Of a stretch of DNA of 64,000 nucleotides, positions 8,709 through 48,200 are shown piece by piece. Location: assembly GCA_963556145.1 (NCBI GenBank), contig OY744472.1, positions 3,162,001-3,226,000 of the forward strand. The letters are read 5' to 3'. How positions within the stretch are numbered: position 1 is the first letter of the stretch; every line of letters begins with the position of its first letter. This DNA is from Hygrocybe punicea (taxonomy: Eukaryota > Basidiomycota > Agaricomycetes > Agaricales > Hygrophoraceae). The translations under genes were made by a program, and so were the position numbers. Under the pieces are notes generated by a model that searched no databases, was not told the DNA's origin, and saw only the letters and a list, made by a program, of their open reading frames with translations.

Positions 8709-11544
8709 ATGATTTTTATCATTGCAATGTCTTGGGCACAATGTGCTGTTGCTGGGCTTGGCTTTATGCCTCCTGCAAGTGTCATACAAAATGTCCATGT
8801 CACACCAACTGTCTCTGTACTATCAAATGTCATTCTGTACCCTGTTACTCTGAATGTTTCTGAAGACACTCAGACAAAGTATGAAAATCCTACTTTTTTA
8901 GTGCTTATTCATCATATTAGTCACCATCCCACCTCTTCTTTCACATCACTAAAGCCTGAAAAAATCACAAATATCCACAACAGCACTGAATTTGTTCTGT
9001 CTAGTTGTCAATCAGCTCATACCTCTTTTCTAATTGAACTATATGCCAGAATCTTCTTGAACATGTTTGTTTTACTTTCTGAGTATCATTTTGCAACCAG
9101 CATTGCTAATAAATGCATGTATATTAAGTTAAAACTTCAACAGAATGTGTTCAGAAAACATGACTTCAGAGCTTACTTAAAATATGTAAACAAACTCCCT
9201 ATATTAGCCAATGGAGCAATCCTGCTGTTTGTCCTAGTTCTGTATCATTTTCTAGCTTTTCAAATGTCTGTTCACCATATTTGTAAAAAATCTTTGAAAT
9301 TATATGACATTTTCAAGTCTGAAAATATACCTTTCAGTGCTGACATTGATATTGAATGCATTGGTGGAGGCAAAGCAAATATATTCTCATTTCATGAACT
9401 AATGCCTGCTTCAACCAATAACAATGCAAGTATGGATGCAGCTAAATATAAATTCCACTCTTACATGCTAAAAAATGAAGCATGCTCATTGGAATCATCA
9501 GCTGAGAAGTCACTTGTAATTGTAAATCACCCATTTGAATTGTTGATTCCAAAGTTAACCATTGCCAACTTGAAGGTAATTGCAGCTTATCATAGCATTC
9601 TTGTCCAGTCAAAAATGAAGCAGGGATCAATTCAAACTGCAATACAGAATCATGTGTGCTCCAACTGTCCTGAATTTGTATCAATCTTTGAATTTATTGA
9701 TGAAGAAGCAATTGCAATTCACAAGAAAACCTCAAACACCCATGCAGTCAATAAATTTAATGCACAACATCCTGACAAATATGCACAATGAAATCTAACA
9801 GCTGTGCAGAAATTTCACAATAAACACCCTGATAAGCATGCCAAACAAAATCTAGCAGCTGTGCAAAAATTCCAGAGTGAAAATCCTGACAAGCATGCAA
9901 AGCAAAATCTGGCAGCTGTGCAAAATTTTCAGATTGAAAATTCTGACAAGCATGCCAAACAACATCTAGCAGCTGTTCAGAAATTTCAGAGTCAAAATCC
10001 TGACAAGCATGCAAAACAAAATCTGGCAGCTGTCCAGAAATTTCATCTGGAGCATCCTGAGAAGCATGCAACACAAAACCTTGCAGCTGTTACAAAATTC
10101 AAAGTTGATCATTATGACAATCATTTGCAACACACATTAAATGCAGTTAGAAGACATACCATGAACCACCCTGAGCAGCATACACAAATAAATCAGATTG
10201 CTGTGCAGACATACAGAGATAATATTCAATTCCCTCCTGATCCACCTTCAGCAAAATTGCAACACACTATTATTTCAGGATTTTGTGGTGATACCTCTCC
10301 CAACAAATTTATTGAATCTGGTTGTGCTGTCTGTGGAAGATTGACTCCAGTCTCTCAATTGCAAAGCTACACAGAGTTGAATTTAAGTTGTTTGAAACAA
10401 TGTGGTATAACTCAAACAGAGCGCTTCTCAATAAATGATCAAATTGAATCTTCAGATAGCCCTATAATAATTGAAGATCTTCCTGGCATTTGCAAGAAGT
10501 GTTACAAGTCTTTGATCAAAGGAAAATGCCCAACTATGTCTCTGGCATATGGTTTATGGCTTGGACACATTCCTCATGAATTGACTAATTTGTCTTATGC
10601 AGAACAACTGTTAATTGCTAGAGTGAGGCACAACAGATGCATAGTTCGAGTTTCTTCAGGAATGCATAAGATGAGAGCCAATGCTATTACTTTTGCCAAC
10701 CCAACTCCAAAGATATATGACATTTTACCCCCACCTCTTGATGAGTTGGACAAAGTACTTGCATTCATTTATACTGGACCATGTAAACCTACCAAGTCTG
10801 ATTTTGAGAGAACACCATTGCTTGTTAGAAGAAACAAAGTTGCCACTGCTTTGAATTGGTTGAAACTGAATCATTGTGACTACTTTGACTTGGAAATCTC
10901 ACAAGAGAATTTGAAGCAATGTCCTGAGAATGACATACCACTTGTGGTAGAGTACAGACAATCCTTTGTCAACAAAAACCCAGAAGCTACTGCTGTTAAT
11001 GACATGGAAGAAGAAGAAGGAACTGAGACTGGCATGTGTCCATTTGTAGTTCATGGTCTGACAGGTGAAGAGTACTCGACCAAAAGTATCAAAGCCATAA
11101 AAGCCATTGCATTAAAACATCTGATGGATAATAAAAAGATCTTGGCAATTGGACATGAGAGTGATCCACAATCCATCTACAATAATCCTCAGTTGTTCCC
11201 TCAAATGAGGCCATGGTTGTTTCCCTATGGACTTGGTGGAATTGGAAATTCTCTGATCCAAGGCAAGATTTCTGAAATCAAACACAAGAGACACTTGTTA
11301 ATGTACTATGACAAGAGGTTTCAGAAAGATCCCCACTTCCCTTTGATTGCATTCAACCATGAGCAAATAAAAGAGTCTACAACAGCTGGCTATTTATTAG
11401 CTGAAAAGGCAAAAATTGAACACATTTCACAAAGATTGATGGATGTTGATCTTGGAGTTTTGAATAACATTGCTAGGAAAATGGAAAATGGTGAACATGT
11501 CACTCCAGAGACAGATGAAGAGAAACTTTGTTTCCAATTAATTA
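8709..11544 (+). pseudogene. Helitron family-1 Rep-helicase, N-terminal third
   Basis: Encodes the region before the Rep nuclease: an N-terminal leader, about eight 19-residue repeats (9736-10200), a Cys pair (CAVCGR near 10325), then ARVRHNRCIVRVSSGMHKM and the FPYGLGG and HKRHLLMYYDKRFQ blocks typical of the Helitron N-terminal domain. In-frame TGA 9789-9791 lies in the first repeats. The frame runs to FQLI at 11544, where a TA-target MITE interrupts. Joining 11544 to 45212 gives FQLIKDIDHIGS in frame, so the other half is at 45212-51613. The plus-strand start is uncertain; 8709 is the first ATG. Confidence 0.9.
9736..10200 (+). repeat. 57-bp coding tandem repeat in Helitron protein
   Basis: About eight copies of a 19-codon unit with consensus close to NPDKHAKQNLAAVQKFQ. 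The central five copies are most alike and the edge copies are degenerate. The corresponding segment of the family-2 protein (38000-38100) does not have this array. Confidence 0.9.
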
Positions 11545-11949
11545 CAGCCGTTTGCATAATTCTTGGCAGTAAATGCACTTTTTTCAATCAATTGAGAAAT
11601 ATGGACTTAGTGGAATTTCCAATGCTGAATCTTGTATCTCATGAAATACTGCATGGATTGAGATGGGTATAGAGGGAAAGTTGTACTATTCTTGAAGGGC
11701 TATCTGCTCCTGTAATTATATTTGGACAATATTTAGTGGATGATGAGTTGTAGATGAAACAAGAGGTAAACCAGTACTTTTTAACACCCAAAATGATATT
11801 GTCAAATTATGGCATCAAATGAACTCCTATGAAGAAGATTGTAGGGAGAAAATTGTCCATTCTTTCAAGGGCTAGAAGTACATATACCGTGTTTTTCTTT
11901 ATTTTTGGTCTGTGAGTCCATATTTATGATTCTTGTGGTATTTCACTCC

Positions 11950-13600
11950 TGTTACGGATCGCTTCTGCAGCGGGCTCCGGCAACAATCAACTTAACAGGG
12001 GATCGGCTTCCAGAGGAGAGAACAGCAGCTTTCATTGTTGCTTACAGCTAAGACAACACTGCTAAGAAGGGGGGGTCAAGGTCTAATGTCATTGCGAGCC
12101 GTGGGGGTTACCCAAAACAAGATGAGTCTGCCCCAAGAACCAGACTAAACGTAAGGAAAGGAAAAGAAGAAAAAGTCCGAACCAACAACAAGAACAGTAC
12201 ATATAGTGGCTGGTCTTGAGGGGAGGTAAATAGGAATACAACCATGAAGCCACAACATGTCCAACTCTACCATGTGTTCACCATGAGGCATACATGAGGC
12301 GTCCTCATGTCGATGTTCTCGCGATCCAACTGGAGGCCTGGGTGTCGTTGAGGATAGAAGAGGTCCAGATGACTCGGATGATTTGTCATCGGATCATGTG
12401 ACATGCAGAATTGCCAATTCGGGGTCTACACTTGCTGTAATGGGCAAGTACGCAGTTTGGCAAGTGCATTGCATGGTCGGGTCGAAGATGGGTATCGTCC
12501 AGTGTAGGATTGGTGATGAGAGTGTCTTGAGGTAGCAGGGACATAGCGACAAGGTCGGTATAAAGGAAAACAAAGGAATGTATGGAGGGAAAACCAACTA
12601 GGATGGTGGGATAGTCGAGGTCAGACATGTGAACAGCATAAGCTGTACCGGATGACGATGTCTGTGTCAATGACGTATCGAGGGGTGATGTCTTGTCCTG
12701 TCTGTGGAACAATGCAGTCCACCTGATGTTGGTATTCATCCAAGAAAGGGTATTGTTGTAAACGAGTGTGGGAGATATCAAGGTTATAGATGGAAAAGGG
12801 TAAATGAATGTGGGTCCAGGTTTCGAGTCATGGCACAGGTGACAAGCTGTGGGAACAAGTCGTCGGGTACTGCAATGAAGCGATGTCGTGCGAACAATAT
12901 GCGATAGGGGTTGGTTCACTGTTTGGGAAGTCGTATGGTCTGTGGTCAAAGTCCAAAAGAATGTGCTTCGGCGATGGTCGGATTAGAGAGAACAGTGAAA
13001 TGTCTTGTGATCGGGGATTGTTCAGAGTTCGCATGCAGGTGAGGAATGTCGTCGGATCGTCAGGGAGGATAATGGTAGGCACAGGGTACGAAAGTGGAAA
13101 CCATATATCCAGGTATGGCAATTGTCAATTACGTGTCGATATATTGTCAAGGTGGAAGTCGGAAGTATCGATGGCAGAAGGGTTTCGGTACCGATGCCAA
13201 AGATAGAACATAACAAGGTAAAAACCGATCAGGAAGGTGATGGCGATGCTGCCAATGATGATTACGGTAATTAGCTGTGTTGGGAGTACAGCCATTGTAA
13301 ATCGGTTTGTTGTGGGATGAAGTCAACAATATGTCAGGGCAAGGGAAAAGACAATAGCAATGATGTCCGTCGGCAAGGAGACTATTCGGGTACAGCAAGG
13401 TCACGTGGGATATGTCCATGGTCGGTCTGGATTGTTCTAGAAGAAGAAAGGATGAAAAGAGAACAAGAACAAGAATAAACAATGATGTCCAAAAGAAGAC
13501 AAAAGGTAAAGGGGAACAAAAAAGGAAGGTATGGTAAAGTGGAATCGTCATCATGGGTAGCGGAGTCGGAATCGGAGTTGCGGAGTTGAAAAATGTAACA
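11950..13600. mobile_element. Solo LTR, 1.65 kb, in the MITE loop
   Basis: Begins TGTTACGG and ends TGTAACA (TG..CA with TGTTAC/GTAACA inverted ends), flanked by a 5-bp duplication ACTCC at 11945-11949 and 13601-13605. No internal retrotransposon gene, primer-binding site or second LTR is seen, so a solo LTR left by recombination is the simplest reading. Long frames on the minus strand (12386-12949, 13147-13644) lack recognisable domains and I do not call them genes. Confidence 0.8.
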
Positions 13601-13809
13601 ACTCCCATGCAGACCAACATAATATAGATGCAATATGGACTCAATGAACAAAAATAAAGAAAAACACGGTATATGCACTTCTAGCCCTTGAAAGAATGGA
13701 CAATTTTCTTCCTACAATCTTCTTCATAGGAGCTCATTTGCTGCCATAATTTGACAATATCATTTTGGGTGTTAAAAAGTACTGGTTTACCTCTTGTTTC
13801 ATCTACAAC

Positions 13810-14146
13810 CACCTGTGAAGCCCACCAAACCCCTCTAATTAGAGGTTACATCCTATCTGGGTGACACCTCTAACTAGAGGGTATTTATCGTGGCTAGGGC
13901 CTCCTTCAATAAATGTTCAATAGCTATAGGGTACTTGAAAAATTTTAACATCTGGCCTCGGACTATAGTGTGTTTCTGGCCCCGCCTCCCGCTCACTGTT
14001 GTCCCAATCTGGACATCCCAATGTGGATGTTCTGATTTTGTGCGCGCTGACCAATGTCCTCAATTTGGACTTGTCCTTGGCATGTCAGCGCCACGTCACA
14101 GACACATGCACTCAACATCCCGCCACCCCCGCTCAACATTTCTCAC
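13810..14146 (+). repeat. KDZ left terminal inverted repeat (337 bp)
   Basis: Intact TIR from CACCTGTGAAG to caacatttctcac. Its mirror is found in two pieces, 20880-20990 (inner 111 bp) and 44773-44999 (outer 227 bp), total 338 bp. The junction gttctga/ttttgtg on the left is mirrored as cacaaaa/tcagaac when the two right pieces are joined. Confidence 0.93.
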
Positions 14147-14263
14147 GGGACTCCATCATTTTAGATGCCCCACCCATCACTGTTCCTGTACACTACATAT
14201 TATACCTTACATACCACTGTCTGTTGTGTCAGCTGCCACAATCAATTAATAGTAGTACTGTAT

Positions 14264-17200
14264 CTAAAGATACAGAATCTCGTATATGGCCTGACCAATC
14301 TCCTCGTCATCTGTGTCGCCATCACCACATTTCTCCCCATCCCACTCATCATCACTATCTTCAATGTGCTCATCTGATATAATACTGGCGCCTGCGCCCA
14401 CCTCTGCAGTGGCCGTCTGCCCAGAGCAAATTTCCTCCCCTGTCTCACCCATGACCTCGACACTCTCCTCTGGCATGAGGCTACCAGTGAACCCTTTGAG
14501 GTGGGCAATCTTTTGGAGGCGGGTGTTATGGAGAGGTGTGAAGCGGCCACGTTCCATTCTGAAGATGGCGATCTGGTGAGCGAGGCCAGGATCATGTACC
14601 TGCACCTCAGCCTCCCTCTTCTGCAAGAAGGCATCCTCATCGCGAAGGTACGTAACGAAACGCATGATCTCCATATTCAAGCATGTGATCTCAGCTTGGG
14701 CACTTAGGATTTTGAAGTGAAGGTCAAGGGCGAGACGGCCCGTAGGTGTGGCCCAAGGACGCTGCTGCACATCCTGCCGAGTATCACGGAGGAGATCGAA
14801 GTCGGCAAGGAACGCATATTCCACCACATCATTCCATTGGAGCAATCGCCGCGGAGGAACCAGGGACTGCGCAGCCGTGTTATACCGCTCTAATGCCATT
14901 CGGATGGCTTGAGACCGAGATTGCAGCACCTTAGTGATGTGCTTGCGAAGCTTGTAACCTACAATAACGATAGCAGAGAATCAGTATGAATAACACATGT
15001 GAAAATGGCAAACTCACCTGTTTGCGACATATTCATCTTCGTGAGCTCAAACAGCCGAGCGACCACAAGCCCCTCCAGGGTATCAAGGGCTCGTTGATAC
15101 TTGCACATTGCAACTAACTTGGCTGTGGCCTCCCATTCCACACAGCCTGGTTCCCAGCGAATAGTGATCTCCAGCTGCCTCTCAAGGTCGTGTACTACCA
15201 CCAGGTCCTTATCCCATCCTTCAAGAGCGTGCCGTCGGGCAGTCTCTTTGGATTGCGTAGTGTCCCTTTTTGATGTCGCCATGACATCGGGGGTTGTGAT
15301 ATTCCATGCTAACCAGGTAGCATCCAGAGTTGCTCTAGCACCAACATATCAGCATAGAAATCAGGAAGGGTTGCCTAAGACTCACTCACTTGTGCGGAGA
15401 TTCACCAGCTTTTGGTAGTACTCCATCTGGAGTGTCTCCTCCGAAGGCTCTTTCATCAACGCCTTGAGGTAAGCGCATTCTTCCGCTAGCCAGTCATTGA
15501 AGACGGCAGTATCACTTACTCCAAGTTCCTCCATCACTTGAGTCAGGGCTGTGGGCCCAGTAGTGAGAATGTCGAGGGCTTGTGAATAGTTGTTGAGGAG
15601 GAAGGTACCTAACAGCCGAATGAGCAGTTGTTAGAACCACAGAAAATGAACTTACTTAGGCTGTGATACATGTCAAAGTTATCGGTATGCTTGAAGTAAG
15701 CAACGATGGCCTGCCAGCGGTGGAATGCGCTGGCATAACGAAGGGTGGGAGCTAGGTGGTTTGATTTGGAGAAGGCGTGTTTGCAGCCTTCCAAGTCGTT
15801 AAGGCCAGCATCCACATCATAGGACACTAGGTGCGAGAGTTGACAAATGCGATTGTGCGCATGGCCATGAAAGGCGCCGACAAGTGACTTGTACTCTGAC
15901 TGACGCGCGAGAGGACCTAGGGGGCTCTGGTTTAGTGTGGTCCCAAACTTACAACCAATGTCGTAGCCACCACAGAGCTTGATTTTCAATACAGTGATCA
16001 GCTCCTCGACAGTGTGACAACAAGTCATCAGGAGCTACTATGAATAAAAGGTTGATATCAGCCACCTACAGTTCACCACTCCGAACCATATCCGCAATGA
16101 GCAACATGAAACCATGTCGGCAGAGAGAGAGGAAGATCCCGGTCTCATCAAAAATCCCCCACATTCGCGCTGTGAATTCCGTCGCCATGTTTCGCCAACG
16201 ATCAGAGCAAGGGTTGATATCGGGGTCATCCGACTTGGCCAGTGTGAGTAGAAACAGTAGACTATGGTTAGAACCTCACCTGGCCATCCTCAGCCAGCAA
16301 CTCCTGCAGCACAGTTTTTTCCCATTTGTCAACCTTCGCTCATGGCAGATAATAGTCGCTATTGATGGTTCTTGTGTCAATCCGATCAATCGCCGGCCCA
16401 ACGATGGGCTGACCATCAGGACCATCGGTCGTTGGACCGCGAAGCAGAATGCGCTTCGGTGAGTCGTTACCATCCATCGTGAAAAGTATGTCGTATGTAA
16501 GCTGTGGCTCATCTTTGAGTTTGTAAGTACAGGGTGGGCAGCAATGCTTCAGCCGCCAATTGGGGGTGTCACGGCCCAGGGCATGTTGGACACGCCTGTC
16601 AACAGTGGAATGGATGGCCAGATAGACATCATATGCGATAGAAAATTGTCTGGAGAGATAGGGCTTGAAAGGCACCTAAAGTACACGACATTGGTGCAAG
16701 CAAACACTATAATGACGATGCACTTACGCAGTGGAGATCACACAGAGTTTTCACAAATCGTTGCACTGCGAGATGCGGACAACGCAAGTGTGCCGTCCGA
16801 TACAGTTCAAGAGCGTGGATAGTGATGGCCACAGAAGGTTTGGCAGGGGAACAGGGGATGAGACCGTGTCGAATGAAGGCAGTGGCGATGTAGGCATCCG
16901 TTGGGAGTAAGTGGAACTTGACAGGGTAAGATTCTTCGGGTGGATAAGCAGTTTGAAGACAAGACACAAGGAACAAGGGCTTACGGAAAACGTCAATGAT
17001 GTTGACTTGATACTTGCCCTCTGAGGTCGCATCACCTAGCTGCCTTCCCTGCAGCTCCCATCTCACATAGGCATCCGTCATCTTTTCCATCTGCTGAGCG
17101 AAGTGGGTGTGAATGTTTTCAGTGCGATCTCGTCGTGTATGATGGTCGGCACGTTTGCGACTTCTAGAAGGTCAGTGTCAATTGCAGAAAGGTTACTGCA

Positions 17201-17741
17201 AGCCTACCGTTTCTTGAAATTATCCACAAGCTCGTCTTCCATGGCCCGAGCCACCTCCGCAAACTCTCCACCAGCATGGCTGATGTCTATGCAATCGGCA
17301 CCAGTGAGCACATCCTCCATCATCATCCAGTCTTCATCCCTCTCATCCGGTTGGCCATTACGTTGTTCATCATAAGCACGACGCTCTGCTGCAGTCATCT
17401 CTGCAAAGCTCGTCAGGTAGAAGTCAGGCTGATATGAATAAAAAATACCTAGTAGGCGCTGGTGGTGCAATTCAGCTGTAGAAGCCTGGCATACTCTAAT
17501 CTGTCGTTGACCGAGGGATTCCTTGAAGGGTATGCACCGTCCTGTGGAATTTGTCTGGCTGCCTGAGTACAAGACTCTTCAAGACGAGGAGGTGGTGAGA
17601 TTGCGAGTCTTTGGGTGCTTCCCCATGTGGGAAGAACAAACAAACAAGTGGCCGTATACATGTACATTTACAAGTGGCACGTATACCACTACCGTGACCC
17701 AACGTCTTTCCACCACTCCAACCTTCCACATCTTCCCGTAG
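14264..17741 (-). CDS. KDZ transposase (Kyakuja-Dileera-Zisupton superfamily)
   Basis: Multi-exon gene read on the minus strand. Segments in order: LGIFYSYQPDFYL (about 17430); the start of the catalytic region with INIIDVF-like and CPHLAVQRFVKTLCDLH blocks (17090-16710); SRQFSIAYDVYLAI and GRDTPNWRLKHCCPPCTY (16660-16530); LCGGYDIGCKFGTTL, GAFHGHAHNRICQL and LNDLEGCKHAFSKSNHLAP (15990-15750); then the long helical C-terminus with RSQAIRMALERYN and WNDVVEYAFLADFDLLRD (14929-14264). The last intron is clear: MNMSQTG joins YKLRKH across 14960-15017. Borders of the earlier introns are approximate and the first exon (around 17600-17741) is uncertain. This family is widespread in Agaricomycetes. 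I cannot tell whether all exons are intact. Confidence 0.85.
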
Positions 17742-17997
17742 CACTACATCCTTGTCACCCTGTATACTTAGGTTAAAGTACATATATCTTGTATACTAAT
17801 TATTAGGGAGAATTTACTAAACTTTTGATGGGTTTTCATATCTTTGTGTAAACCACACAATTCACCATGCAGAGTGGGCGCAACAGAGTGATATTGAGAG
17901 GGGGGTAGGCATTACATCATACAGAACAAGGAGCAAACGGCGACACTACATTACAGGCGGAAGGATGTGATACCTTGAGTAGCAAACAGGACGCTTC

Positions 17998-18865
17998 CTA
18001 TTCAACTTTCGGTTCAGGTACCACGTCGCCCGCCATGTACCCAAGAACGAACAGGAGGTCAGCTTCTGTGAGATTGCGAGCACGCTCAACAATGGAAGTC
18101 GACAGAAAACCGAGGACAGCATTAGCCTTTAACCTGCAGGTATTGTTATACATGCAGATACAAGGCTCCGGGGGCTTACCTGCCATGGTAGATGCCTGGC
18201 AATGCGCCTCGCAATACCACCCAGAAGGATTCTTCATCTGACTGTCCACCCACACAAGTACTTGGCGAGGAGGGGCTGCTGGCCTGAGGGAAAGTGTCCC
18301 GGGGCTGCTGGGGGCTGGAGGGAGTTGTTGTAAGTCCAGTTGTTCTGTTCGCAACTGCAGTCTCCCATGCTTCATGAGCCGCTGCAGCACTGTAGAACCC
18401 ACGAAATCTGGCGTGTGGAAATCCACTGGTCATCGACGAACAAGTATTCCTATAAACATAGTTAGCGAGGTCTGCAGCACAAGATGGCGGTTCTTACCAA
18501 GTATCAAACACGCCCATTTTCCTGCCATTGAACACAACGTAGGCAACGTATTTGCCCGTCTTAGTAGGACTATCAACAGTGGTCAGTGGAACAGGAATGT
18601 GCCGAAGAGATTTCTGTGTGGCGACTTCGAAGGGGTCTTCAGGAACAGGAAGGTACTCCTCGGGCCGTTTCACAAAGGGATGGCGAGGTAGAGGAAAATA
18701 GAATAGAGGACACAGAGGATGGAGATGAGGGAGACGGCAGCCCTGATGGTGCTGGATAGTGAAACTGGGACATGCGGGTGTTGAGAGGTTCTGCAAAGAA
18801 GTCACACGGAATCTTGAAGCTTGAAATAACAAAACTCGCCTATTTTCATAGTTAGACGGCAACAC
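17998..18865 (-). CDS. Protein with two RNase H1 N-terminal (viroplasmin-like) segments
   Basis: Three exons on the minus strand: up to 18498, 18449-18180 and 18133-17998, with GT..AG introns of 48 and 46 nt that keep frame to a TAG at 17998. The first segment reads KYVAYVVFNGRKMGVFDTW and then MTSGFPHARFRGFYS...AHEAW. The second reads FWVVLRGALPGIYHGR. The pattern YVV..G...G(V/I)(F/Y) is the signature of the RNase H1 N-terminal hybrid-binding fold (PF01693 type). No RNase H catalytic domain follows. The start codon is uncertain (first ATG at 18865, a low-complexity proline region in between). It lies inside the KDZ element upstream of the transposase on the same strand, so it is probably KDZ cargo or an accessory gene. 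Confidence 0.6.
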
Positions 18866-19105
18866 ACGGAAAGTAGTGGTCTGGAGGATGGGGAATAAAT
18901 ATTCATATATTAATACTTATCACAATACATGTTTTGTTGCATGTGTGCGTTGTTGAACTCCATGTCAATTCGACAGGATTCCGGCACTTGGGCTGGGCGC
19001 AACTCCACCAAGGATGTCATTGTCGTCAGTGCGTGAACGAAATCTTCAACCACCTCGGCAACGCGTAAGATCACACGAGAGTGGACCAGGGCAAAATACG
19101 CAGCG

Positions 19106-20607
19106 ATGCAGACCGATATCAACACTTTGGTGGAGGAAGTCGATGCTAAAATTGAAGCGCTTGCACATGCTCACAGTCGAAAAGCAACCTATATCAAGCA
19201 GCTCGTCCTTGGCAACACGTTATACAAACAACGCAGGGCTCCTACCCTACACAACGCCATCTCCCATTTCAAAAGTGTAGAGTTGAATGAAGGTAACGTA
19301 TTGCTCCCTGTCTGCTCACTTATGCTTTGATGACACCTGCTTGTAGACTTGCCCCCTGGGGAGCAGCTACACCTAGCAGATCTCCAGAAGCTGGCCAAGG
19401 AAGACCCGGATCTTAACGACATGTCCCAGGAGAAGCAGGCCGAACTAATTAGAGGTCTTGAAGAGTACCATGCTACCAATAAATTGGGCGCTCGGAGATC
19501 AAACATCTCTGCTGCAAAGGATGTTAGGACTACAGTGGATCGAGTTAGCCTGGAGGTTTGTCATGCCATAGGTCATGTTGCCAGTGTTGTTGACCCGCTC
19601 GTCAGTTGGACAACCTTGCTTCACGCACCGGAATTCACGCCATTGCCTTCATTACCCGTGGTCATATCAATGATACGGTGGAGCTGGAATGGCTGGAGTC
19701 CAGAAACTCGATGGAGTTCCTCCGAGACACCTATGATATGGACCCTTGGGACGTCTCAAGATTGTTCGAGCAGTGGGCTTGCTCTCGTACAAAGAGTGAG
19801 TTGTTTGCCTGCCTGTACTACTGATCATCACCTGATTGTGCAACAGATGGTGAAGCCTGCGACACATTGCCCGCGGTTCGTGTACAATGCACCAAGATAA
19901 TACTCTCGGGTCTTAGTAAGTTCATCTATTAAGTTGTGATGCTACAGCGTACTCATACTCCGACAGAATTTGCCACAAAAGCCAAGGATATCGCTATGAA
20001 CTACACCAACTATGAGAGCTCCATCGTTGAGTGCTACAAGGTCAAATTAGTTGGTTGGACATACCCCAAGTTTGTCAGCCCCTCCGAAATTGGTGCTATG
20101 GGTGACGTCCAAAAACTTCGGGATGCATTGAAGTCAGGGTCATGCAAGTGGGTCCGGCTCTCTAAGCAACAGGTGAAGCAACATGTTGCAGATGTCGAGA
20201 GTCGGCGCTCTCAAGGTGAGGTCATAGGAAAGAAGTGCAAGGAGCGAAGTGACAAGGGCAAGAAACGCCCACACAAAATGACCCACGCACCTGATGGCGA
20301 GTCCCCGGCATCCAATGGTGATGAAGATGGTGACGTTGAGGAGGATGACGAGTGCCCACGGAAGAAGAAAAAGGTGGCGGTGAGCACAAGACCCCATGCC
20401 AACAGGAATGACGACAATGACAAAGAGGGTGACGAGCGCCCGCAGAAGAAACAAATGAAGGTTGCCACGAGCACAAAGTCCCGTACCATTGGGAAGAAAA
20501 CCCTCAAGGTTGCGCATCCCAGGAAAGCGAAGGAAGCCCCTGCGAGAAGCAAGTCCATCATCTCGGACACCAATGAAAGTTGGGAAGAGAGTGTGGATGA
20601 TGAGTAG
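19106..20607 (+). CDS. KDZ-associated basidiomycete orphan protein
   Basis: Five exons: 19106-19292, 19347-19555, 19606-19795, 19847-19915 and 19967-20607, all with GT..AG introns. The sum is 1296 nt, an open 431-residue product. The N-terminal half is helical (SRKATYIKQLVLGNTLY, KLGARRSN). The middle has LASRTGIHAIAFITRGH, DPWDVSRLFEQWAC and LVGWTYPKFVSPSEIG. The C-terminal 150 residues are alternating Lys-rich and Asp/Glu-rich, as in nuclear proteins. I recognise it as a repeated basidiomycete orphan family but know no function. Divergent to the transposase within the same KDZ ends. It appears intact. Confidence 0.75.
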
Positions 20608-20879
20608 GTCTGGCAACCACAGTACAGGCAAGCAAGCTGAGCTGTATCATCTGTGCTTGACTAACACCCACCCACTAGTGACCTGCTCCCTGCTTGAAAG
20701 AAGTCACCCTTGTTTGCTCCCCATCTTTTTAAGTTGAAACTGCCATTTTTTTTGGAAATTACACCACCCCTTACTACACATAGACACACAGCTCTCGGAA
20801 TAAAAATTGATGCTATTGGTACAATATCTACCTGGGTAAGCAACAAACTACAGGCTAAATGATAAATTCTGAGCTTGCT

Positions 20880-20990
20880 GTGAGAAATGTTGAGCGGGGG
20901 TGGCGGGACGTTGAGCGCATTTGTCTGTGACGTGGTGCTGACATGCCGAGGACAAGTCCAAATTGAGGACATTGGTCAGCGCGCACAAAA
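20880..20990 (-). repeat. KDZ right TIR, inner part
   Basis: Inverted match of 14036-14146. Stops at cacaaaa (20990), exactly at the 5' border of the large Helitron. The outer 227 bp are at 44773-44999. Confidence 0.92.
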
Positions 20991-21276
20991 TTATGAGTCC
21001 CTATAAGGGAATCGTTTTGTATATGGTCAGTTTTCAGTTCAGGGTTGAAAACGCCACAAACGCCAATTCGCCTTACCGTGGGAATAAATTTAACTAACTG
21101 TGGGAACAAATTCGAATCCCTGGGAATAATTATGAAACCATGTGACCTTCTCCCTCTTGTAACTGTGAGAACTTATTGTCCTAATCAGTGTGAACAATAA
21201 GGTTGGAGCCAAATTTGTAATGGTGAGAATGTCTGATCAGAGCTGCCGATCTTGGAATTGTGAATGAGCTCCACTC

Positions 21277-35774: not shown

Positions 35775-36179
35775 TTCGAAGTGAGTCCATAGGTTGATAC
35801 GATCTGTGTCATATTTTACTAATGGTTTCTTCCGTCAGATGTTGGTTGGTTGTGGCTTTAGGAACTGGGTCTTTCGTGCGCCTCTTCATATGTTTTTACC
35901 ATCGCGAAATTTGTATTTCTTGTTATATTCGTAAATCGATCAGTTCCCTGCTGTGATTAATGCATGAACTGAGATAAGAGAATATCCCAAGTCAAACAAC
36001 CGAGAATGACAGTCACTAGTGATTGGTAAGTTGATTCAAATATTCTGTATTCTATGTGACTATATGCATCATTGATCGAATGCTAGTTATGAAATCGACA
36101 GGCTAAGATTAACCTTACAGTTCATCTGTGGTGGCAATTGTCTAGCTATGTAGCATGTATCAGTATGTTTGTGACAGGT

Positions 36180-36350
36180 TAACAAGCACTTGCCGAACGG
36201 CGTTTATAAATAGTGCTTATATGGCTTACCAAACACTTGCCGAACGGCATTCAATTCGTTCGTCAACCGTTCGGCAAGCCACAACAACTTCAAAAAAAAA
36301 TGTTGCTGCCCAAATACCAGGCAGAATGGAATGTCCTACGTTGCATTACA
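36180..36350 (+). repeat. Hairpin repeat, one partial and one full copy
   Basis: A partial cttgccgaacggcg at 36190 and a full hairpin ttgccgaacgg...ccgttcggcaa at about 36237-36277, followed by cacaacaactt and the tgttgctgcccaaat block. It marks the 3' edge of the cargo region just before the Rep-helicase gene. Confidence 0.85.
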
Positions 36351-36857
36351 TTATCCAGCAACAATTATGCTCAAATTCTTTCATGCTCCTTTCTACATGC
36401 TTCTACCATCGCCTTTGAATTCAACATTTTTTGTACTTGTATTAAAACAAATTTATCTGTTGCTTTGAATGATGTATGACTAAAATAAGGAGAGAATTCG
36501 ACAATACAATAAATGTTATCAATTAAAACATATAATGTATGTTCAGGCTCAAATTCTTTCTTGTAGATTATTAATTATAATCTCAGTCAAACGTCACATA
36601 CAAAACACACCACTGCAGCCTAGACCAATGCTATCTTGGTAATTTGCTAATTTGCTAATGGTAAAGAATAGGCAATGACGAAATCATTGCATCACGGGAA
36701 GCAACCAAATGGGAATAAACACAGCCTTCGGGCACAATATACAGTTTCAGAGCCATACAAATGGAGCGATATCATATGATCAAACTCGGCATGTTAATTG
36801 TTGTGATGCATGATCCGAACCACTAAACAAGTTAAATAGATATCACCAGATTTACTC
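36351..36857. other. Upstream region of the Helitron family-2 gene
   Basis: About 500 bp, AT-rich. At 36823-36830 it contains CTAAACAA followed by gtta, in the same position relative to the start codon (about 30 bp) as an identical motif lies upstream of the family-1 gene (8581-8588, 120 bp). It is either an old Helitron terminus or a conserved upstream element. Confidence 0.45.
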
Positions 36858-39800
36858 TTGCTCTCACAAATCCACATGTATCTCGACAATATCATCTACA
36901 CATGCTTTCTTGTCACTTCTTTACACATTCTTGCCAATGTAATACAATTTCCACAACTATGCCCAGGCCAACTCACGTACATCTCTGCTGAATCAATCGT
37001 CTTGCCTTTGGTATCGAGTTTGGTCCAGGAACTGAACATATTTCAAGGTAAAGTCATAGGACATGAGCGCTCTACCCAAGAACTGGGTGATTTTAAAGAA
37101 GAACTCATAGAACATGAGTTTGCCCCAGATCAGGGCGGTTCAGCGATACCGATACAAATAAATGCTTCACGACTTCTAAAGTTCAATCAGACAACAAAAG
37201 ATAATTTGAAACTTGATCCATTACACTTTTCAACAACAGTTAAGAATTCCACTTTCGAAATACAGATATATTCTATTGAATATGCCACATCATACTACTT
37301 ACCTTCTAAATATCTTTTTGCTTTGTATTGTTTTATGAAACCTATCACTGTTCAATATCGTTGTTGGATTATCAAGGCGTTACTCATGCAATGTCTCCTG
37401 AGACGACATGACTTCAAATTATATTTATTTCAATGTAATGCTATTGCTATGTCACAAGCAACCTTGCTGTGGATCACACTACAATTTGCAATCGCATATA
37501 GAAGATCATGCATGACTACGTTCAATTTGAATTTATTCAGAAACATGATAACATGCTTATATACAAAGTCTTTTAATAGGTTCCACTACATTGGAGGTGG
37601 TAAACAACTGCCAACATTTAACTTTAATTTTCTCCAACCATTTATGCTGCCATTCAATAATATCAACCATGATTCTAGCTTATTATTCAAATACATCAGT
37701 CATATTGATCAACACACAGCCAGAATTTTGTACGGAAATAACGATGAATATATATGCGTTCAAATGCCTTTACATGAATATCTCCCACAATTGACAGCGA
37801 AGAATATTATAGAAATAGCAACAATACATAAGATATATTTGTCAAAAACAACGCAAAGGTTACATGGACAGGATCTACTTTCCATATTGACCGAGCATAC
37901 ATGTTCGGCTTGTAAAACACATGTTTCTATTTTCCATATTCATGATGTTAAATCGAGTACAGAGCGATACATAAAATGGGCCAACAAGATATCCTCACAT
38001 TTGGAAAAACAGCAAAGCAGATTAGACTTTTGCCATAAAGAACAGTGTTATACTAAACCAGAGCAAGGAGTAAAACAAAACAAGGAAACAAATTGTGACA
38101 AATATTCCTTTCCTCCTCCTCCACCATCTATTGAGTTGAAGGAAACAATAATCCGCAACTGGTGTAAAGATTCATCACCTGAATGCCTCCAGGAAAGTGG
38201 CTGTGCTGTGTGTGGTCAATTAGTTTTGTTGAAAAATATGTCTTTATTATCTACAACAAAGGTCAATCTGAAGATATTGATCAGAGAACATATGGGAATC
38301 ACAAGACAGGAACGATATCATTGTTCTGATCCAATACAGGATATCAAAGGTCCAGTACTGGATGACACATGTAAATGGATATGCAAGCAATGTGTGGTCA
38401 GCCTGAACAAAGGTAGAACTCCCAAATATGCTTTAGCAAATGGCCTTTGGATAGGCACTATTCCTGCACAACTTCGAAATCTGACATTTGCTGAACAACT
38501 GTTGATTGCTCGTGTTCGTCACAACAAATGTATTGTACGTGTGTCATCTGGGATGCATAAAATGAAAGCAAATGCCATCATGTTTCAGAATCCAACACCA
38601 AAGATATATCAACGATTACCTCAAACAGTTAAAGAACTTGATGAAGTGTTAGCTTTCATTTTCACTGGTCCTGCCCGACCAACTCCAGAAGACATGGAGC
38701 GAACGCCTTTATTAGTTCGCAGGAAGCGGGTTTCTGCAGCTTTAGAATGGCTGAAATTGAACCACATAGACTACTATGATTTAGACATCTCCTATGAAAA
38801 CCTAGAACAATATCCAGATCATGGAATTCCTGTTGTGGTTGCATATCGACCAGCAGACACAAATAAGGAACCGGAAGCTACTAGTGCATTTGACAATGAA
38901 GTGGAAGATGGTGTGGAAGATGGGCCTTGTCCTTTTGTTGTGAGTGGGGTAACTGGTAATAATCTAGATATTACAAGTCCAAAAGCATTAATAGCTAGAG
39001 CGACAAAACATTTGATAAATGATCATGGTGGTGTTCTTGCCATAAGCCATGCTAGAAATCCAGAATCCTTCTTCAATAATCCTCAGTTATATCCTATGAT
39101 GTTTCCTTGCCTCTTTCCATATGGCTTGGGTGGCATTGGTAGTGTTGACAAAGATGTTTTAATTATTAGTGATATGATGCACAAAAGACACCTCCTGATG
39201 TACCATGACAAAAGATTTCAAACTGATCCCTATTTTCCACTGATTGCATTCAATCAGGAACAGATTAAAGACAGTACAACAGGTGGATATTTGTTGACTA
39301 ACAAACATAATTTCAATGATATTGCAGATCGCTTGATGAATATCAATACTGCTGTTTTAGATGATCTCTCTAAAAGATTGTCCAGAGGTGATAGAGTAAA
39401 ACCGGAAACACCTGAGGAAAAAGCATGCTATAAGCTCATTTCAGACTTGGACCATGTAGCTGGTCAGGTAAAAGGTTCAATTACCAACAAGAAATACATG
39501 CGAAATGAGATTTGGTCTCTGATATCCTATATTGGTGCGCCAACTTGGTTTATCACTTTTGCACCTGCAGACATCAATCACCCACTATGCTTATATTATG
39601 CTGACAACAAAGAAAAGTTTTATCCTAAGCTACGTCTACCCCAGGATTGTTACAAACTAATTGCAAATAATCCAGTGGCTGGAGCCCACTTCTTTTACTT
39701 TACTACTGAAATGTTCATCAAACACATATTAGGAATAAATGAATCTCATCCTGGTCTGTATGGAAGTACATCAGGTTATTACGGAACGGTAGAGGAACAA

Positions 39801-42800
39801 GGACATCTTACCTTGCATCTTCACATGCTGCTATGGATAAAGGGATGCCTTACACCTCAGGAAATACGTGACAAAATTATGGATGAAAATTCTGATTTTC
39901 AGAAGAGATTAGTAGAGTACTTGGAATGTTTGTGTATAGGACAATTCTTGACAGGTTCTAAAGAAGAGGTATCCCAGAAAATGGAACAGATGATGGCAAT
40001 ACCTGAATATCAACCTCCAACATGTGTTCTCCCAGATCCACCTTCATATACATGTTCTATTAATTGTCAATATCATGACAAAAGATCAACATGGTGGCAA
40101 AAGTTCACAGAGGTTGTCGATTCTCTTTTATTGCAATTAAATTTACATAACAGACACGATGGAAAAAGAAAACCATACTGTCTTAACTCTAAAGGTGATC
40201 GTAAAAGACGATTTCCAAGAGATATCTTTCACCAAACCTTTGTAGAACCTAATACTGATGCTCTCAACCTCAAGCATGGTGAGCCTTGGATGAACACAGT
40301 AACACCTGAAGTAACTTATATGCTGCGATGTAATTCTGATGTGACTAGTTTGTTATCTGGTACTGCTATAAAGGCAATAGTTGCATATGTAACAGATTAT
40401 ATTACAAAGATGTCTTTGAAAACCTATAGCATTTTTGAAGTAATAAAAAGTGTTTTTGATAGGAATTCCGAAATGATTGGTGGAGATTTAAACAGGAAAA
40501 ACAAAGTCAGAAAATTATTTACACAAATAGTCAATTCTCTCACCTCCAAAATGGAGATTGGTGCTCCAATGGCTTCATTATACGTGCTCGGAAATCCTGA
40601 TCACTATGCCAGTCATAAATTTGTACCATTCTTTTGGAGATCTTATGTTAAAGAGGTCATCAGTGCATGGTCTGATGAAGAAATTGCTAATACATGTGAA
40701 GATGAAAATCACGCTCAAAAAGTTGTGATTGGTAAACAAAATGGATCATACATAGGACTTTCCAAAGTAAATGATTATATGTTCAGACCGACTTTGTATA
40801 ATAATGTATTACTGTATAACTGGATACGTCTTGCCACTATGGAACCAAATAAAAGTGGTACAAAAAGAAAAACCCAAATGACTAGCAAAGAATCAACACA
40901 AAGCCAACTTTTTGATGAGGTAGAATTTGATGATGTGTCTGACACCTTTATTGAACATACCAATATTGACTATTCTGATGATGATAGCTTGTCTGAGGTT
41001 AGTGATGATGATATGTTCATGCAAATCGATGAAATTCAGAAGCCTGACAGCTTAAATAAAAAGAACAAGAATGATAATACAAGCACAGACATAGGTGATG
41101 AATCAGATGAAGTTGGTGAAATAGAAATGGATATATCGACAAAAAATAAAAAAGATTATACTTTGCAATGCAATCATGCACAATATCTGACCCACCATGC
41201 AAAAATGAAAGGAAATGATCCCTTCATAGTTCCTAATTTCATTCCAAACAATTTACCAAGGGCTGACCGTGGTGATCGAGAATATTATTGTTGTACAATG
41301 TTAACTTTTTTCAAGCCATGGAGAAATGGCAAAGAAATCAAAAATAAATTACAAACATGGGACAATGCTTTCACAAATTATAAGTTTTCTAAAAGACAGC
41401 TTGAAATCATGAAATACTTTGGTCTGCGATATGAGTGTCTTGATGCAAGAGATGATTTCTCTGCTAAACGTCAAAAGAATAATACTGAAGATATCAAATA
41501 TTCATGGGCTACTTCAAACAATTTTGATGAAATGGATGACATGCACAATGCTGAACTAGCATGTAACGGAGATGATTTCAATGATACTCTTGATGAAAAT
41601 ACAGACACAGAATTACTTGTGACACTTGGTTATAAGGGAAAAAAAAGAAAGGATGAAATGCTAATAGCTGAAAGAACCATGAAAAGGGCAGGATGGCTTG
41701 ATAACTGTATTGATGGTATCCCAGATATAGGACCATTAATACCTGTAGAACCCTCTGTAACACAATCAGCAAAATTATGGAGAGCCACGGTCCTTGCCAA
41801 GAAAAAGGAAATCATTGAAGAACGAAATAAAAATTTGCCATCAAAGACAGGGACCATAACTAAATTGTCAAATTTTCAATATAATAATATAAAAATAGTC
41901 GATGCAGCATACATCCACCACATGTTTATTCCTGCCAACAAAGCTGATCTTCATCTAATTGATATAACTATCAATGATTTCAAGTTGAATACAGACCAAA
42001 AAAGAGCATTTCATATCATTGCCAATCACTCTACCTTGATTAACAGTTCAGAGAAGCTACGCATGTATCTTGGTGGTATGGCAGGCACGGGAAAATCACA
42101 AGTAATCAAAGCATTGATTTGTTTTTTTGGTAAACACAATCAGAGTCATCGGTTTTTGGTTCTTGCTCCAACTGGTGGTACTGCTGCCCTTGTAAATGGA
42201 TCTACATATCACTCCATTCTTGGAATTAATCACGGAGGATCATCTCGTTCCCTTGCACAAGTCCGTGCCAATCTTGATGGTTTGGATTACATTTTCATTG
42301 ATGAAGTATCAATGTTATCCTGCAGAGATATGTATAAAATCAGTGCTCAATGTGCAAAAGCACGTGCCATTTATGATGAACCCTTTGGTGGCATTAATAT
42401 GATATTTGCTGGGGATTTCGCCCAACTTCCACCAGCTATGAGTGGTGCTCCTTTGTATTCTGGATCCGTTGGAGTCCAAATCAATTCCAGTCAAACTATA
42501 GCAAATCAGGAAGCTGCCATAGACAAAGCTCTTTGGCATCAGATTACAACGGTTGTGATATTACGTGACAAACCAATCAGTCAAAAGAAGATGTCCAACT
42601 GAGACAGGCATTGGAAAACATGAGATACAAAGCATGTACTTCCGAAGATATTGCATTTCTTCGTACTCTTATTGCAGGAAAAGGTCCAAATGATCCAAAA
42701 TTAGCCCAAAAGAAGTTCAGGAATGTATCAGTTGTTACTGCATTGAATGCACAAAAAGACAAAATCAATGAACTTGGTGTCCAACGTTTTGCTGCTGAGA

Positions 42801-44662
42801 ATAAAAGACTATTAACATCATTTTATTCAATAGACAGATGGAATGATCATACTAATTTCAAGAACAAAAGAAAATCTGATTATGGATCAACAATTGCAGA
42901 TCCTGTTCGACACACAAGAATATTAGAACCTTCACTCCAGAAATTACTATGGAACCAACCACATGCATCATCCTCGGATCATATACCAGGAAAATTGGAG
43001 TTATGTATAGGCATGCCAGTGATGCTGAGAAACAATGATGCAACAGAGTGCTGCATTACCAAAGGAGCTGAGGCGGTTGTTGTAGGTTGGCAGAGTGCAA
43101 CAGGCCCAGAACAACAGATTGTACTGGACACTTTATTTGTCAGATTAATAAATCCTCCAAAAAACATATACATAGATGACCTTCCTGAAAATGTGGTGCC
43201 AATTACAAAACATATCACTTCCACTATGTATTCATTACCCAATGATGATGTGATATCCTTGTCAAGAGAACAAGTGTTGGTACTCCCTAATTTTGCCATG
43301 ACTGGTTATGCATGTCAAGGGCGTACCCATCCTAACAATGTAGTTGATCTCAGTAGTTGTAGAAACCACCAATCTTATTATACTTGCTTATCTAGAAGTG
43401 CAACTGCTGCAGGAACCATCATTGTTCAAGGCTTTGATCCTAAGGTAATTACTGGTGGTGCTTCTGGATATCTAAGACAAGAATTCAGAGAATTAGAAAT
43501 TTTAGATGAAATAACCAAACTCAAATATCAAGGACTTTTACCAAGCCATATTAATGGAGATCAACGAAATTCTATCATTGATCAATTTAGAAGATGGAAA
43601 GGAAAGTCATATGTTCCAAAACATGTTCATTCTGCTATTGCATGGAAAGCCACGGAGCAACTAAACCAATACACAGCACAGCCCTCTCCATGGCAATTAA
43701 TTAAACCTATGAACAAAAATCAAAAGGCAAATTTCAGAAACCTCAACTTTGTTCCTGCAAAAGGAACTGTTTCAGTCACTGTTGCTCATAAGAATTTCAC
43801 AGCCAATGTATTGCAAAATAAAAAACGAAAATTAGAACAAGTTGTAAGTTCATCTTCCATAGTGAAAAAAAGACAAAAAACAAGTACTATTGAATTAAAT
43901 GAACCAAAAGGGTTTATATGGGATGCGCAAGATTGGAGCTGTGCTTATGATTCACTCTTTACAATATTACTAGCAATATGGAATGACAATGCATCAAGTT
44001 GGAAAAAAAGATTCAACAGCATCAATGAAATATTAAAGATTTTGAGCTTAGGATTCAAACGATCAAAGAATAACACAACAGATTTAGAAACAGTTAGAAA
44101 TGCAATCAGACATTTATTGCATCAAGATAAACCCGAAATATTTCCTTATGGTCAAATTGGTATTGCCATAAGTGATTTAGCTCATTATATAATGAAGCCA
44201 AATAAAGCAATGACTTCATCTTATCTTAAATGTATAAATTGTGAAAACATAATCCTTCTGGAAAATGATAGATGTGATGCTACTTTTCATTGTCCATATT
44301 CATTTTCTGGAACAATCTCAGCATATCTTGCTCAAATCATAGTCAATAGACAACGACATAAATGTCAATTGTGTAAGGGAGAGGTTATAAAATTTATTAC
44401 ATTCAATAAAATTCCTCCTCTGATCATGTTTACAATTGACTCTATTGAAAATTTAATAGTGAGTCGAATTATAAACATGTCAATTGATGAGATATTCACC
44501 ACCTATACACTGAGAGGAATTGTGTACTTTGGTCATGCACATTTTACTGTTCGCTTATTTGTTAATGGTATGGTATGGTTGGATGATGGCATGTTAACAA
44601 AATCAATTTGTATTAATGAAGGAAACATGGATAACTTCTCCAAGATGGATTTATTGTCATGA
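36858..44662 (+). pseudogene. Helitron family-2 Rep-Pif1 helicase, one frameshift from intact
   Basis: Rolling-circle transposase of about 2600 residues. Domains: N-terminal region with Cys pairs (CAVCGQ, CKQC); Helitron N-terminal domain (RVRHNKCIVRVSSGMHKM, FPYGLGGIGS); Rep nuclease with HLHMLLW near 39820 and AYVTDYITK near 40390 (two-Tyr motif); acidic linker (40920-41150); Pif1-type helicase with GMAGTGKSQ near 42080, FIDEVSML near 42295, GDFAQLPP near 42412 and NFAMTGYACQGRT near 43290; and a C-terminal cysteine-protease-like region (DWSCAYDSL 43930, two CxxC, GHAHFTVR 44535, WLDDGM 44580). The frame runs 36858-42602, then shifts by one near 42590, within a stretch that matches ILRENMRQ in family 1, and continues to 44662. 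No other break is seen over 7.8 kb. A 24-nt gtgac..aaag stretch there is too short for an intron. Confidence 0.93.
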
Positions 44663-44772: not shown

Positions 44773-44999
44773 TCAGAACATCCACATTGGGATGTCCAGA
44801 TTGGGACAACAGTGAGCAGGAGGCGGGGCCGGAAACACACTATAGTCCGAGGCCAGATGTTAAAAATTTTCTAAGTACCCTATAGCTATTGAACATTTAT
44901 TGAAGGAGGCCCTAGCTACGATAAATATCCTCTAGTTAGAGGTGTCACCCAGATAGGATGTAACCTCTAATTAGAGGGGTTTGGTGGGCTTCACAGGTG
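44773..44999 (-). repeat. KDZ right TIR, outer part
   Basis: Inverted match of 13810-14036, ending CTTCACAGGTG, then target duplication TCTACAAC (45000-45007). Confidence 0.93.
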
Positions 45000-45209
45000 T
45001 CTACAACTCATCATCCACTAAATATTGTCCAAATATAATTACAGGAGCAGATAGCCCCTCAAGAATAGTACAACTTTCCCTCTATACCCATCTCAATCCA
45101 TGCAGTATTTCATGAGATACAAGATTCAGCATTGGAAATTCCACTAAGTCCATATTTCTCAATTGATTGAAAAAAGTGCATTTACTGCCAAGAATTACGC
45201 AAACGGCTG

Positions 45210-48200
45210 TAAAGATATTGATCATATAGGAAGTCATGTCAAAGGATCACTCACAAGCAAGAAATATATGAGAAATGAAGTATGGTCTCTGATGTCCTTT
45301 GTGGGTGCACCTTCATGGTTTATCACATTTTCACCTGCAGATAACATGCATCCACTGTCTTTATATTTTGCTGATACCAAAGAAACCTTTACACCTGAGC
45401 TTAGAGGATATGATGAGCGGTACAGACTTATTGCAGAAAATCCAGTGGCTGGTGCTAGATTCTTTCACTTTATGGTAGAACTATTTATCAAACATGTCCT
45501 GGGAGTTGGTTCAAACCATTCTGGCTTTTACGGTGACACCAAGGCATACTATGGCACAGTGGAGCAACAAGGTCGTCTCACTCTTCACATGCACATGCTA
45601 CTATGGCTCAAAGGATGTCTGTCACCTCAGGAAATCAGAGATAGAATAATGGATCCAAATTCAGATTTTCAACAAGCTTTTGTTCAGTATCTAGAAAGTG
45701 TGCACATTGGTGAATTTATGACTGGATCCATGGCTGAAGTCAAAGCTAACATCAACCAGAAATCTGAACAAGAAGACTCTAAGGATCCAACTCAAATGTT
45801 GCCTGAAGCACCCCCACCTATGTGTATAATTAGGCATGATGTGGATGGTGACAACAATTGTAATGATTGTAAACAAGTGAATTCTTGGTGGGATAGATAT
45901 GAAATTCTTGGTGGGATAGATATGAAAACACTGTTGATCATTTGATTTTATGCTCCAATGTTCATAATTGTGGTAGAAATAGTTCAAAGAATGAGAAAGT
46001 GCAGAGAAAAGATAGACCCAGTTGCATGAACAAACATGGTAAATGCAAAGCTAGATTTCCCAGACCTGTGTTTGAATCAACACAAGTAGACCCAAAAACT
46101 GGTGCATTGAACATGAAAAAGGGAGAAGCATGGATTAATACATTGACACTGCTTGTGACATTTTTACTGCGCTGCAATTCTGATATTACAAGTCTTCTTT
46201 CTGGTACTGCAATCAAAGCCATTGTAGCCTATATCTCTGACTATATTACAAAACCTGGATTGAAAACCTATAGCATATTTGATACCATCAGAAGTGTGTT
46301 TGATAGAAACTCAGAAATGCTTGGAGGATCCATGAAATGAAAAGACAAAGCTAGAAAACTCATCACCCAGATCATAAATGCTTTAACTTCAAAACTTGAA
46401 ATTGGTGGTCCAATGGTTTCAATGTATCTGCTTGGCAACCCTGACCATTATACCAGTCACAAATTCATCCCTGTCTACTGGAGAAACTATGTGAGAGAAG
46501 CCCAGCAAGCTTGGAATCCAGACGACAATGATGACATGCAAGTGGACTCTGAAAAAGTTGTATTGTACAATCAAAAGGGAAAATTCATAGGATTATCTGC
46601 TGTGTATGACTACATTTACAGACCAACTCATTATGAAGACATGAATTTATATGAATGGGTGCAGGGTGCAGAAAGAATCAAGAGAAACATTGAAAAACCT
46701 CATGATGAAATAAACAGTGATGATGAGTTAGATGTCCTGCAATCTGAGCCACAAACTGCAACTCATAAAAAAACTTGGAGATCTAATGTATCTACCAGTA
46801 ATGACTTGAGCATAGAATTTGATGATCTGAACATAAAAGATGATGACAATTTCATAGAATGTGATTCAGAAGACAATGAGTCTGATAGCACTGAGTCTGT
46901 CCAAGAAGATACCAAGCTTTTTCTAGAAGATCACCCATTATATGAATCACACTGTATAGAATTCAGTGAAAAGAAGAAGTATGTTGTTCCAAACTTTGTT
47001 GGTGGTTCAATGCCCAGACGTGATAGAGGAGACAGAGAATACTATTGCACCACAATGCTCACTGTGTTCAAACCATGGAGATCTGGTCATGACCTGAAAA
47101 GTAACCTGGAATCATGGGATGAAGCATTCACTGATCATGAATTCACTAATAGACAATTAGATATCATGGACAACTTTGATCTGAGATATGAATGCCTTGA
47201 TGCTAGAGATGACTATTCTGCTCAGCTTAGACAAGGAGCAGTGTTAGATGGTACTTGTCCTCAATTTATGACTTCAGACATGATTTCACACTTGGATGAT
47301 GACAACATTCAAAATGGTGGTGACTTTGGAGATGATAATTATGAGCAGGACAAAAACAATGCAGATTATGGCACTAACAAATACTCTGAACTTGGTCAAC
47401 ATGGTAGACTGATCAAAGCTCAAATGGATGCCACTGAATATATTGTCAGAAATATTGGTTGGCTTGATCCATGTCCAGATAGTTCAATTACAGTCAATTC
47501 TGCTCCACTTGAAGTTGAAATGAATCAACCTGGTAGTCAATGGAAACAACTTGTTCAAGAACAGAGCCAAGGAATACTAGATGAGCACAATCAACATATT
47601 CCTGCAAACTCAAAGTCTACTGCACACAAAACATATACTGATCCAAATGAAAATGATGTGATGATTGTAGACCAATCATACTTGATGCAAACTTTCAGAG
47701 CTGAAAATGCACACAGACAACAGCTAATTGATGCTACAGTTAGAAAATTCAGCCTGAACACTGAGCAAAAAAGAGCCTTTAGGATTATTGCAAATCATGC
47801 TTCCTCTCCTAACAGTGACCAGTTGAAAATGAATATTGCTGGAATGGCTGGCACTGGAAAATCACAAGTCATCAAAGCAGTTGTTGATTTCTTTGACAAT
47901 GCACATGAGTCTCACAGATTTGTTATTCTTGGTCCTACTGGTGCATCTGCAGCTCTGCAAAATGGTTCAACTTATCACTACTTCTTGGGCATCAATCCAA
48001 ACATGTCAAATAGAAATGAAACAATGGGCATTGCTCAGCTCAAAGGTAGACTAGAAGGAGTTGACTATATTTTCATTGATGAAGTCTCCATGTTGTCTTG
48101 TCATGATCTCTACAAAATCAGTGCCAGACTGGCTAAAGCTTGGAACATACATGAGATGCCATTTGGTGGAATCAACATGATATTTGCTGGAGACTTTGCA

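Follow-up and report, generated by a model that had tools for sequence, protein, structure and literature searches.

The genome of Hygrocybe punicea contains, on contig OY744472.1, a 64,000-nucleotide stretch (hereafter the window) in which transposable elements of several kinds interrupt one another, raising the question of whether they arrived one by one and, if so, in what order. The nested insertion pattern is real, and the order Helitron 1, miniature inverted-repeat transposable element (MITE), KDZ transposon, large Helitron and 782-bp insert stands by nesting; a solo long terminal repeat (LTR) occupies a separate site in the MITE. This arrangement almost certainly arose as one element after another transposed independently into the same spot of a fungal chromosome rich in repeats. 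The original prediction had described a four-level nest; the nesting is borne out, but the depth is five layers, as the insert at 29384-30165 is absent from a sister of the large Helitron. Other copies of elements in the same genome served as unoccupied sites (92.2 Mb, 42 contigs; the window lies on contig 40), and such copies were found for the elements of the four outer layers and for the LTR. Each genome search scored 40 candidates, and copy numbers are therefore lower bounds.

Insertion boundaries and unoccupied sites

Boundaries, target duplications and unoccupied sites can all be read directly at this locus (Table 1). Helitron 1 encodes both Rep and helicase domains (Helitron_like_N, E 6.3e-30; PIF1, E 2e-22; Pfam), and its open reading frame (ORF) at 9804-11544 includes DUF6570 (residues 239-370, E 3.6e-41). 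Once 11545-45211 is removed, the 300 bases of Helitron 1 on either side of the join align without gaps near it in 20/20 spanning loci, which represent 19 separate places, two loci overlapping (of 40 scored matches, 19 were cut out in addition to the window's own). The coding ends thus rejoin without the MITE as predicted, being continuous in 19/19 other places. Unoccupied copies have one TA where the window has two, which identifies TA as the target duplication. All other scored copies (39/39) likewise start at query base 291, which is base 8590 of the window. At 8589/8590 the 5′ side of Helitron 1 abuts the 3′ end of another Helitron, and at least one more small Helitron (50093-51355) lies within the 3′ coding part of Helitron 1; positions 8590 and 50092 are its boundaries with neighbouring Helitrons and only provisional outer ends.

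Without its inserts, the MITE is 811 bp long and consists of two arms of about 380 bp. Alignment of 11545-11930 with the reverse complement of 13606-13809 + 45008-45209 runs ungapped over 380 columns (local score 362, equal to 9 mismatches), and the arm coordinates first proposed hold. The element is short, has inverted arms and a TA duplication and occurs in many copies, as is characteristic of MITEs; from its length and palindromic make-up it is judged to be probably non-coding. At least 85 matches were found, from the 40 candidates scored out of 907. The rejoined 811-bp sequence aligns over its full length to 11 of the 12 fetched copies with 96-98% identity, and to the twelfth over 702 bases. 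Flanking TTA and TAA (TA within TTAA) are present in 6/6 other copies with both ends located, and TA stands at the left in 9/9 other plus-strand copies and on both sides in the window.

Both interruptions of the MITE are absent from 12/12 other copies, as the original prediction required. Joining the MITE one ACTCC base short produces a one-base gap in 12/12 copies, and with the complete join each of the 12 has one gap fewer. The KDZ site is uninterrupted in each, one copy having a substitution within the 8-bp target, and a diverged 167-base MITE fragment at a further locus (85% identity) is likewise uninterrupted there. The LTR has TG...CA ends and a 5-bp target site duplication (TSD). Same-strand pairs of this LTR occur elsewhere (e.g., C34:575706-577368 and 580427-582089), known by their coordinates alone; given these pairs, the window copy is read as a solo LTR.

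The KDZ element has the terminal inverted repeats (TIRs) and 8-bp TSD of Zisupton/Dileera-type transposons. An 8-bp TSD flanks 3/3 KDZ elements for which both ends were available: the window's, one on C8 (AGTTACAT) and one on C41 (TCATGAAT). The C8 sister (C8:4662826-4670830) is 97.5% identical over 7046 columns; at about 7147-7716 of the locus C8:4662726-4670930 it carries a TAC-flanked insert of about 570 bp that the window copy lacks. The 12 KDZ ORFs scanned show no TET/JBP domain. Removal of 20991-44772 joins the 111 and 227 bp of the right TIR into 338 bases that differ from the 337-bp left TIR by 10 substitutions and 1 indel, in line with the predicted match. The A-T dinucleotide brought back by this join is likewise intact in the left TIR of the window and in 5/5 other TIR ends that reach across the site (six other TIR loci were cut out, of which one stops short of the site; another is only 85% alike overall).

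The large Helitron has a CTRR 3′ end followed by host T, with no target duplication at the empty KDZ site, as is typical of Helitrons. Its 3′ end is CACCCCACTAG (CACTAG) followed by T in 12/12 loci cut out, its own included. The canonical 5′ TC is lacking: the 5′ end is TTAYGAG in 11/12 loci, the twelfth aligning only from base 6. The preceding base is A in 8/12 and G in 4/12 (one G placed by extrapolation). A T is common to both ends, which leaves one base of the boundary ambiguous, and the last 60 bp give only a weak fold (-4.5) for a subterminal hairpin.

The fifth layer is visible against a sister of the large Helitron (C8:2239395-2262401), whose first 17 kb are 98.7% identical to 20989-29383 and 98.6% identical to 30166-38675. 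This sister, the one compared (1/1), is uninterrupted at the site of 29384-30165 and reads CATCTAGCTTATG; around the insertion point the window has ATCTA, 782 bp and TAGCTT, and the sister has ATCTAGCTT. The ends of the 782-bp insert are weakly alike. Overall, element identities and target sites given in the original prediction hold against same-genome copies and protein domains (Helitron_like_N, PIF1 and KDZ).

Table 1. Positions of the nested elements and their parts in the window (dot: no strand assigned)
Feature	Coordinates	Strand	Remarks
Nest	11543-45211		Outer TA duplications included; deepest path five layers; within Helitron 1
Helitron 1 (layer 1), left fragment	8590-11544	+	DUF6570 and start of Rep/helicase coding region
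Helitron 1, right fragment	45212-50092	+	Remainder of Helitron_like_N plus PIF1 helicase
TA target duplication	11543-11544 (left) / 45210-45211 (right)	.	Read from sequence
MITE (layer 2), left part	11545-11949	+	Left arm and left ACTCC
MITE, middle part	13606-13809	+	Up to left TCTACAAC copy (13802-13809)
MITE, right end	45008-45209	+	
Solo LTR (layer 3a)	11950-13600 (1651 bp)	+	TGTTAC...GTAACA
ACTCC target duplication	11945-11949 / 13601-13605	.	Flanks solo LTR
KDZ transposon (layer 3b)	13810-20990	.	Left TIR 13810-14146, interior, inner 111 bp of right TIR
KDZ right TIR, outer 227 bp	44773-44999	.	
KDZ 8-bp target duplication	13802-13809 / 45000-45007	.	TCTACAAC
KDZ transposase domain PF18758	15612-16034	-	E 7.7e-35
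Large Helitron (layer 4)	20991-44772 (23.8 kb)	+	5′ TTATGAG; 3′ CACCCCACTAG, then host T
Large Helitron coding region	36858-42602	+	DUF6570 E 1.9e-43, Helitron_like_N E 1e-30, PIF1 E 1e-17
Large Helitron C-terminal coding region	42611-44662	+	ORF
Cargo gene region	22403-24188	-	Three ORFs
782-bp insert with TA duplication (layer 5)	29384-30165	.	Inside large Helitron

Order of arrival and alternative origins

The history read from these boundaries almost certainly begins with the settling of a Helitron of an abundant family. A TA-targeting foldback MITE then entered the Rep/helicase gene of Helitron 1, and two elements entered the MITE separately: a KDZ transposon and an LTR retrotransposon, the latter presumably cut down afterwards to its solo LTR. 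The 23-kb Helitron followed into the A-T dinucleotide of the KDZ right TIR, and the 782-bp TA-flanked element into the large Helitron. For these steps, we infer the enzymes responsible, the LTR–LTR recombination and the lost mobility of the outer elements. The predicted age order is thereby sustained for Helitron 1, the MITE, the KDZ element and the large Helitron; the place it gave the LTR is not, as nesting leaves the LTR unordered relative to both the KDZ element and the large Helitron.

Insertion order would differ from nest order if outer and inner elements had moved together as composites (e.g., a MITE with the KDZ element aboard), which is very improbable here. A genome-wide search with 25-26-base patterns, allowing up to 3 mismatches, found one exact place in 92.2 Mb for each of four left-hand junctions (Helitron 1/MITE, MITE/LTR, MITE/KDZ and KDZ/Helitron). 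Extra hits came from the MITE/KDZ pattern only; all six have 3 mismatches, and the KDZ end CACCTGTG is missing from every one. The 20-25 bases beside fetched copies of the inner elements, judged by eye, also differ from those in the window. A composite that moved by cut-and-paste would leave no second copy behind, so absence of a copy is no proof against that variant. The search thus revealed no copied composite, and nesting is what gives the order. A chimeric assembly of repeats is the weakest alternative, with a negligible probability: the window does contain a scaffold gap that separates two identical 431-bp stretches and is surrounded by a 2.9-kb inverted repeat, but the gap lies outside the nest, and matching target duplications around inserts of up to 31 kb and base-exact rejoining with other copies are not expected of random joins.

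Since the order is known from nesting, the locus allows a test of substitution and CpG-decay clocks, and the agreement is only rough. Private substitutions are those present in the window copy only; own-window loci and duplicate places (11 in all) were removed first, and matches with less than 90% identity or less than half coverage were excluded. Helitron 1 has 41 in 2988 columns (17 relatives on one side and 13 on the other), more than the large Helitron with 25 in 3700 (0.68%; 9 and 10 relatives; p 0.006). The MITE has 8 in 811 (12 relatives), and the KDZ element 9 in 1491 (0.60%; two relatives only), of which 8 are changes of CpG to TpG or CpA. The LTR has the fewest of all elements, 2 in 1651 (11 relatives), lower than the large Helitron (p 0.006) and the KDZ element (p 0.03). 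These counts may suggest that the LTR is the youngest at the site, and they do no more than suggest it because each private count is an upper limit on age at the site.

Several points weigh against successive insertion in nest order. The KDZ value of 0.60% is below the 0.68% of the large Helitron inside it, which does not strictly follow the nest; the MITE count is not different from that of the large Helitron (p 0.36); and shorter stretches of Helitron 1 (8/1200 and 8/600) are no higher than the MITE. In addition, junction uniqueness covers the left-hand side of four junctions, and junctions were judged on assembled sequence alone. Private substitutions were consequently rejected as a clock, because strict nest order is broken and the Helitron 1 value varies by stretch, and are kept as upper limits.

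CpG depletion was also rejected as a locus clock, despite a rise in the observed/expected ratio inward: Helitron 1, 0.07; MITE, 0.20; KDZ, 0.65; large Helitron, 0.71; 782-bp insert, 0.72 (LTR, 0.81). The depletion is a family trait, since CpG is absent from the columns of Helitron 1 and the MITE in which all fetched relatives agree. The lack of CpG in the outer elements is thus common to copies elsewhere and does not record time at the site, making composition clocks weak. TIR divergence was set aside as an age measure as well: between the two TIRs of the window KDZ element there are 11 differences, but the pair in the C8 sister also shows 5, so such divergence is not peculiar to the history of the window copy.

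The large Helitron, its cargo and neighbouring elements

The large Helitron may represent a family that moves a unit of about 23 kb with about 15 kb of non-Helitron cargo, including a gene that is related to genes of further mushroom-forming species, a tentative proposal of somewhat less than even probability. Besides the window's 23.8 kb, same-strand ends pair at about 20.6, 23.0, 25.0, 29.9, 42.0 and 42.8 kb, and one further, doubtful pair is 81 kb apart; these pairs are coordinates only, the C8 pair alone having been examined inside. The cargo gene at 22403-24188 has 12 relatives at E <= 1e-3 (best 6.1e-87), four of which have a named organism, in each case a basidiomycete (Phlegmacium glaucopus, Flagelloscypha sp., Hericium alpestre and Epithele typhae). 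We take all four to be Agaricomycetes. Its three ORFs have no Pfam match; parts of the product may resemble ATP-grasp proteins, a likeness unsupported by any such match. The ORF at 42611-44662 matches no Pfam family at E 0.01.

Within the large Helitron, the CpG observed/expected ratio is 0.38 in the Rep/helicase part and 0.84 in the cargo, as would be expected if an old, methylation-decayed core had recently gained cargo and then copied it to several sites. The element differs from the fetched part of its sister by 231 substitutions; transitions account for 206, and at 172 of the positions one of the copies has a CpG, a pattern that methylation of cytosines and their subsequent deamination would probably explain. 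Purifying selection on the cargo was considered and rejected: window and C8 sister differ at 61 nonsynonymous and 21 synonymous codons, with no stops, in a count over 11 mechanical ORFs, some overlapping and with most changes CpG transitions, so that the count does not demonstrate constraint.

Further elements surround the nest. The small Helitron at 50093-51355 lies in minus orientation in the C-terminal coding part of Helitron 1, and 40 of 43 other matches start at query base 90-93, which corresponds to its boundary. A second small Helitron-like insert (51612-52733) has the same TTACGAGTTC hairpin end, repeated at 52659-52733. The stretch directly before Helitron 1 (5937-8589) contains 3′ ends of Helitrons and a further piece of a Helitron helicase, and 7721-8364 recurs inverted at 63357-64000 (98%). 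The sole N run of the window (100 N at 56326-56425, outside the nest) lies between identical 431-bp stretches (55895-56325 and 56426-56856), and 53407-56315 returns in inverted form at 56621-59507 (96%); the region resembles an unmerged scaffold join.

Relation to known systems

Intact same-genome copies of every target give the order of events without another strain, and fix when five transposon families reached a single locus relative to one another. Nested transposons are already known in basidiomycetes, and the window is an unusually clean new example. In Laccaria bicolor, 382 nests or clusters of transposable elements are described, most nested elements being incomplete, according to the portion of that study drawn on here (PMC3411680). 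The likeness lies in the tight nesting of basidiomycete elements; in contrast to those mostly incomplete ones, the window has its insertion points and target sites resolved to the base for all five layers.

KDZ stands for Kyakuja-Dileera-Zisupton, and an 8-bp TSD is given for Zisupton and for Zisupton-1_PGr of the Dileera lineage in the relevant part of a survey that covers fungal KDZ elements (PMC12730594). The window element shares the transposase domain and this TSD length. It differs from two Laccaria Kyakuja families, for which the same part of the survey gives 7-bp TSDs and no TIRs (PMC12730594), in having 337-bp TIRs and an 8-bp TSD.

The 23-kb cargo Helitron family is a more interesting piece than the nesting itself, and exact ends have been obtained here for a fungal cargo Helitron of this size. 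The Pleurotus ostreatus families HELPO1 and HELPO2 have Rep/helicase, insert at AT and carry captured genes, and HELPO1 has CTRR 3′ ends, as summarized in the sections of that report used here (PMC4289320); the window family resembles them in all these features, the CTRR end being shared with HELPO1. The same sections quote maize Helitrons of up to 35.9 kb, so a size of about 23 kb is not in itself new (PMC4289320). Compared with HELPO1, which they describe as 1.5-13.7 kb long and starting with T[C/G] (PMC4289320), the window Helitron family is about 23 kb long and starts with TTACGAG.

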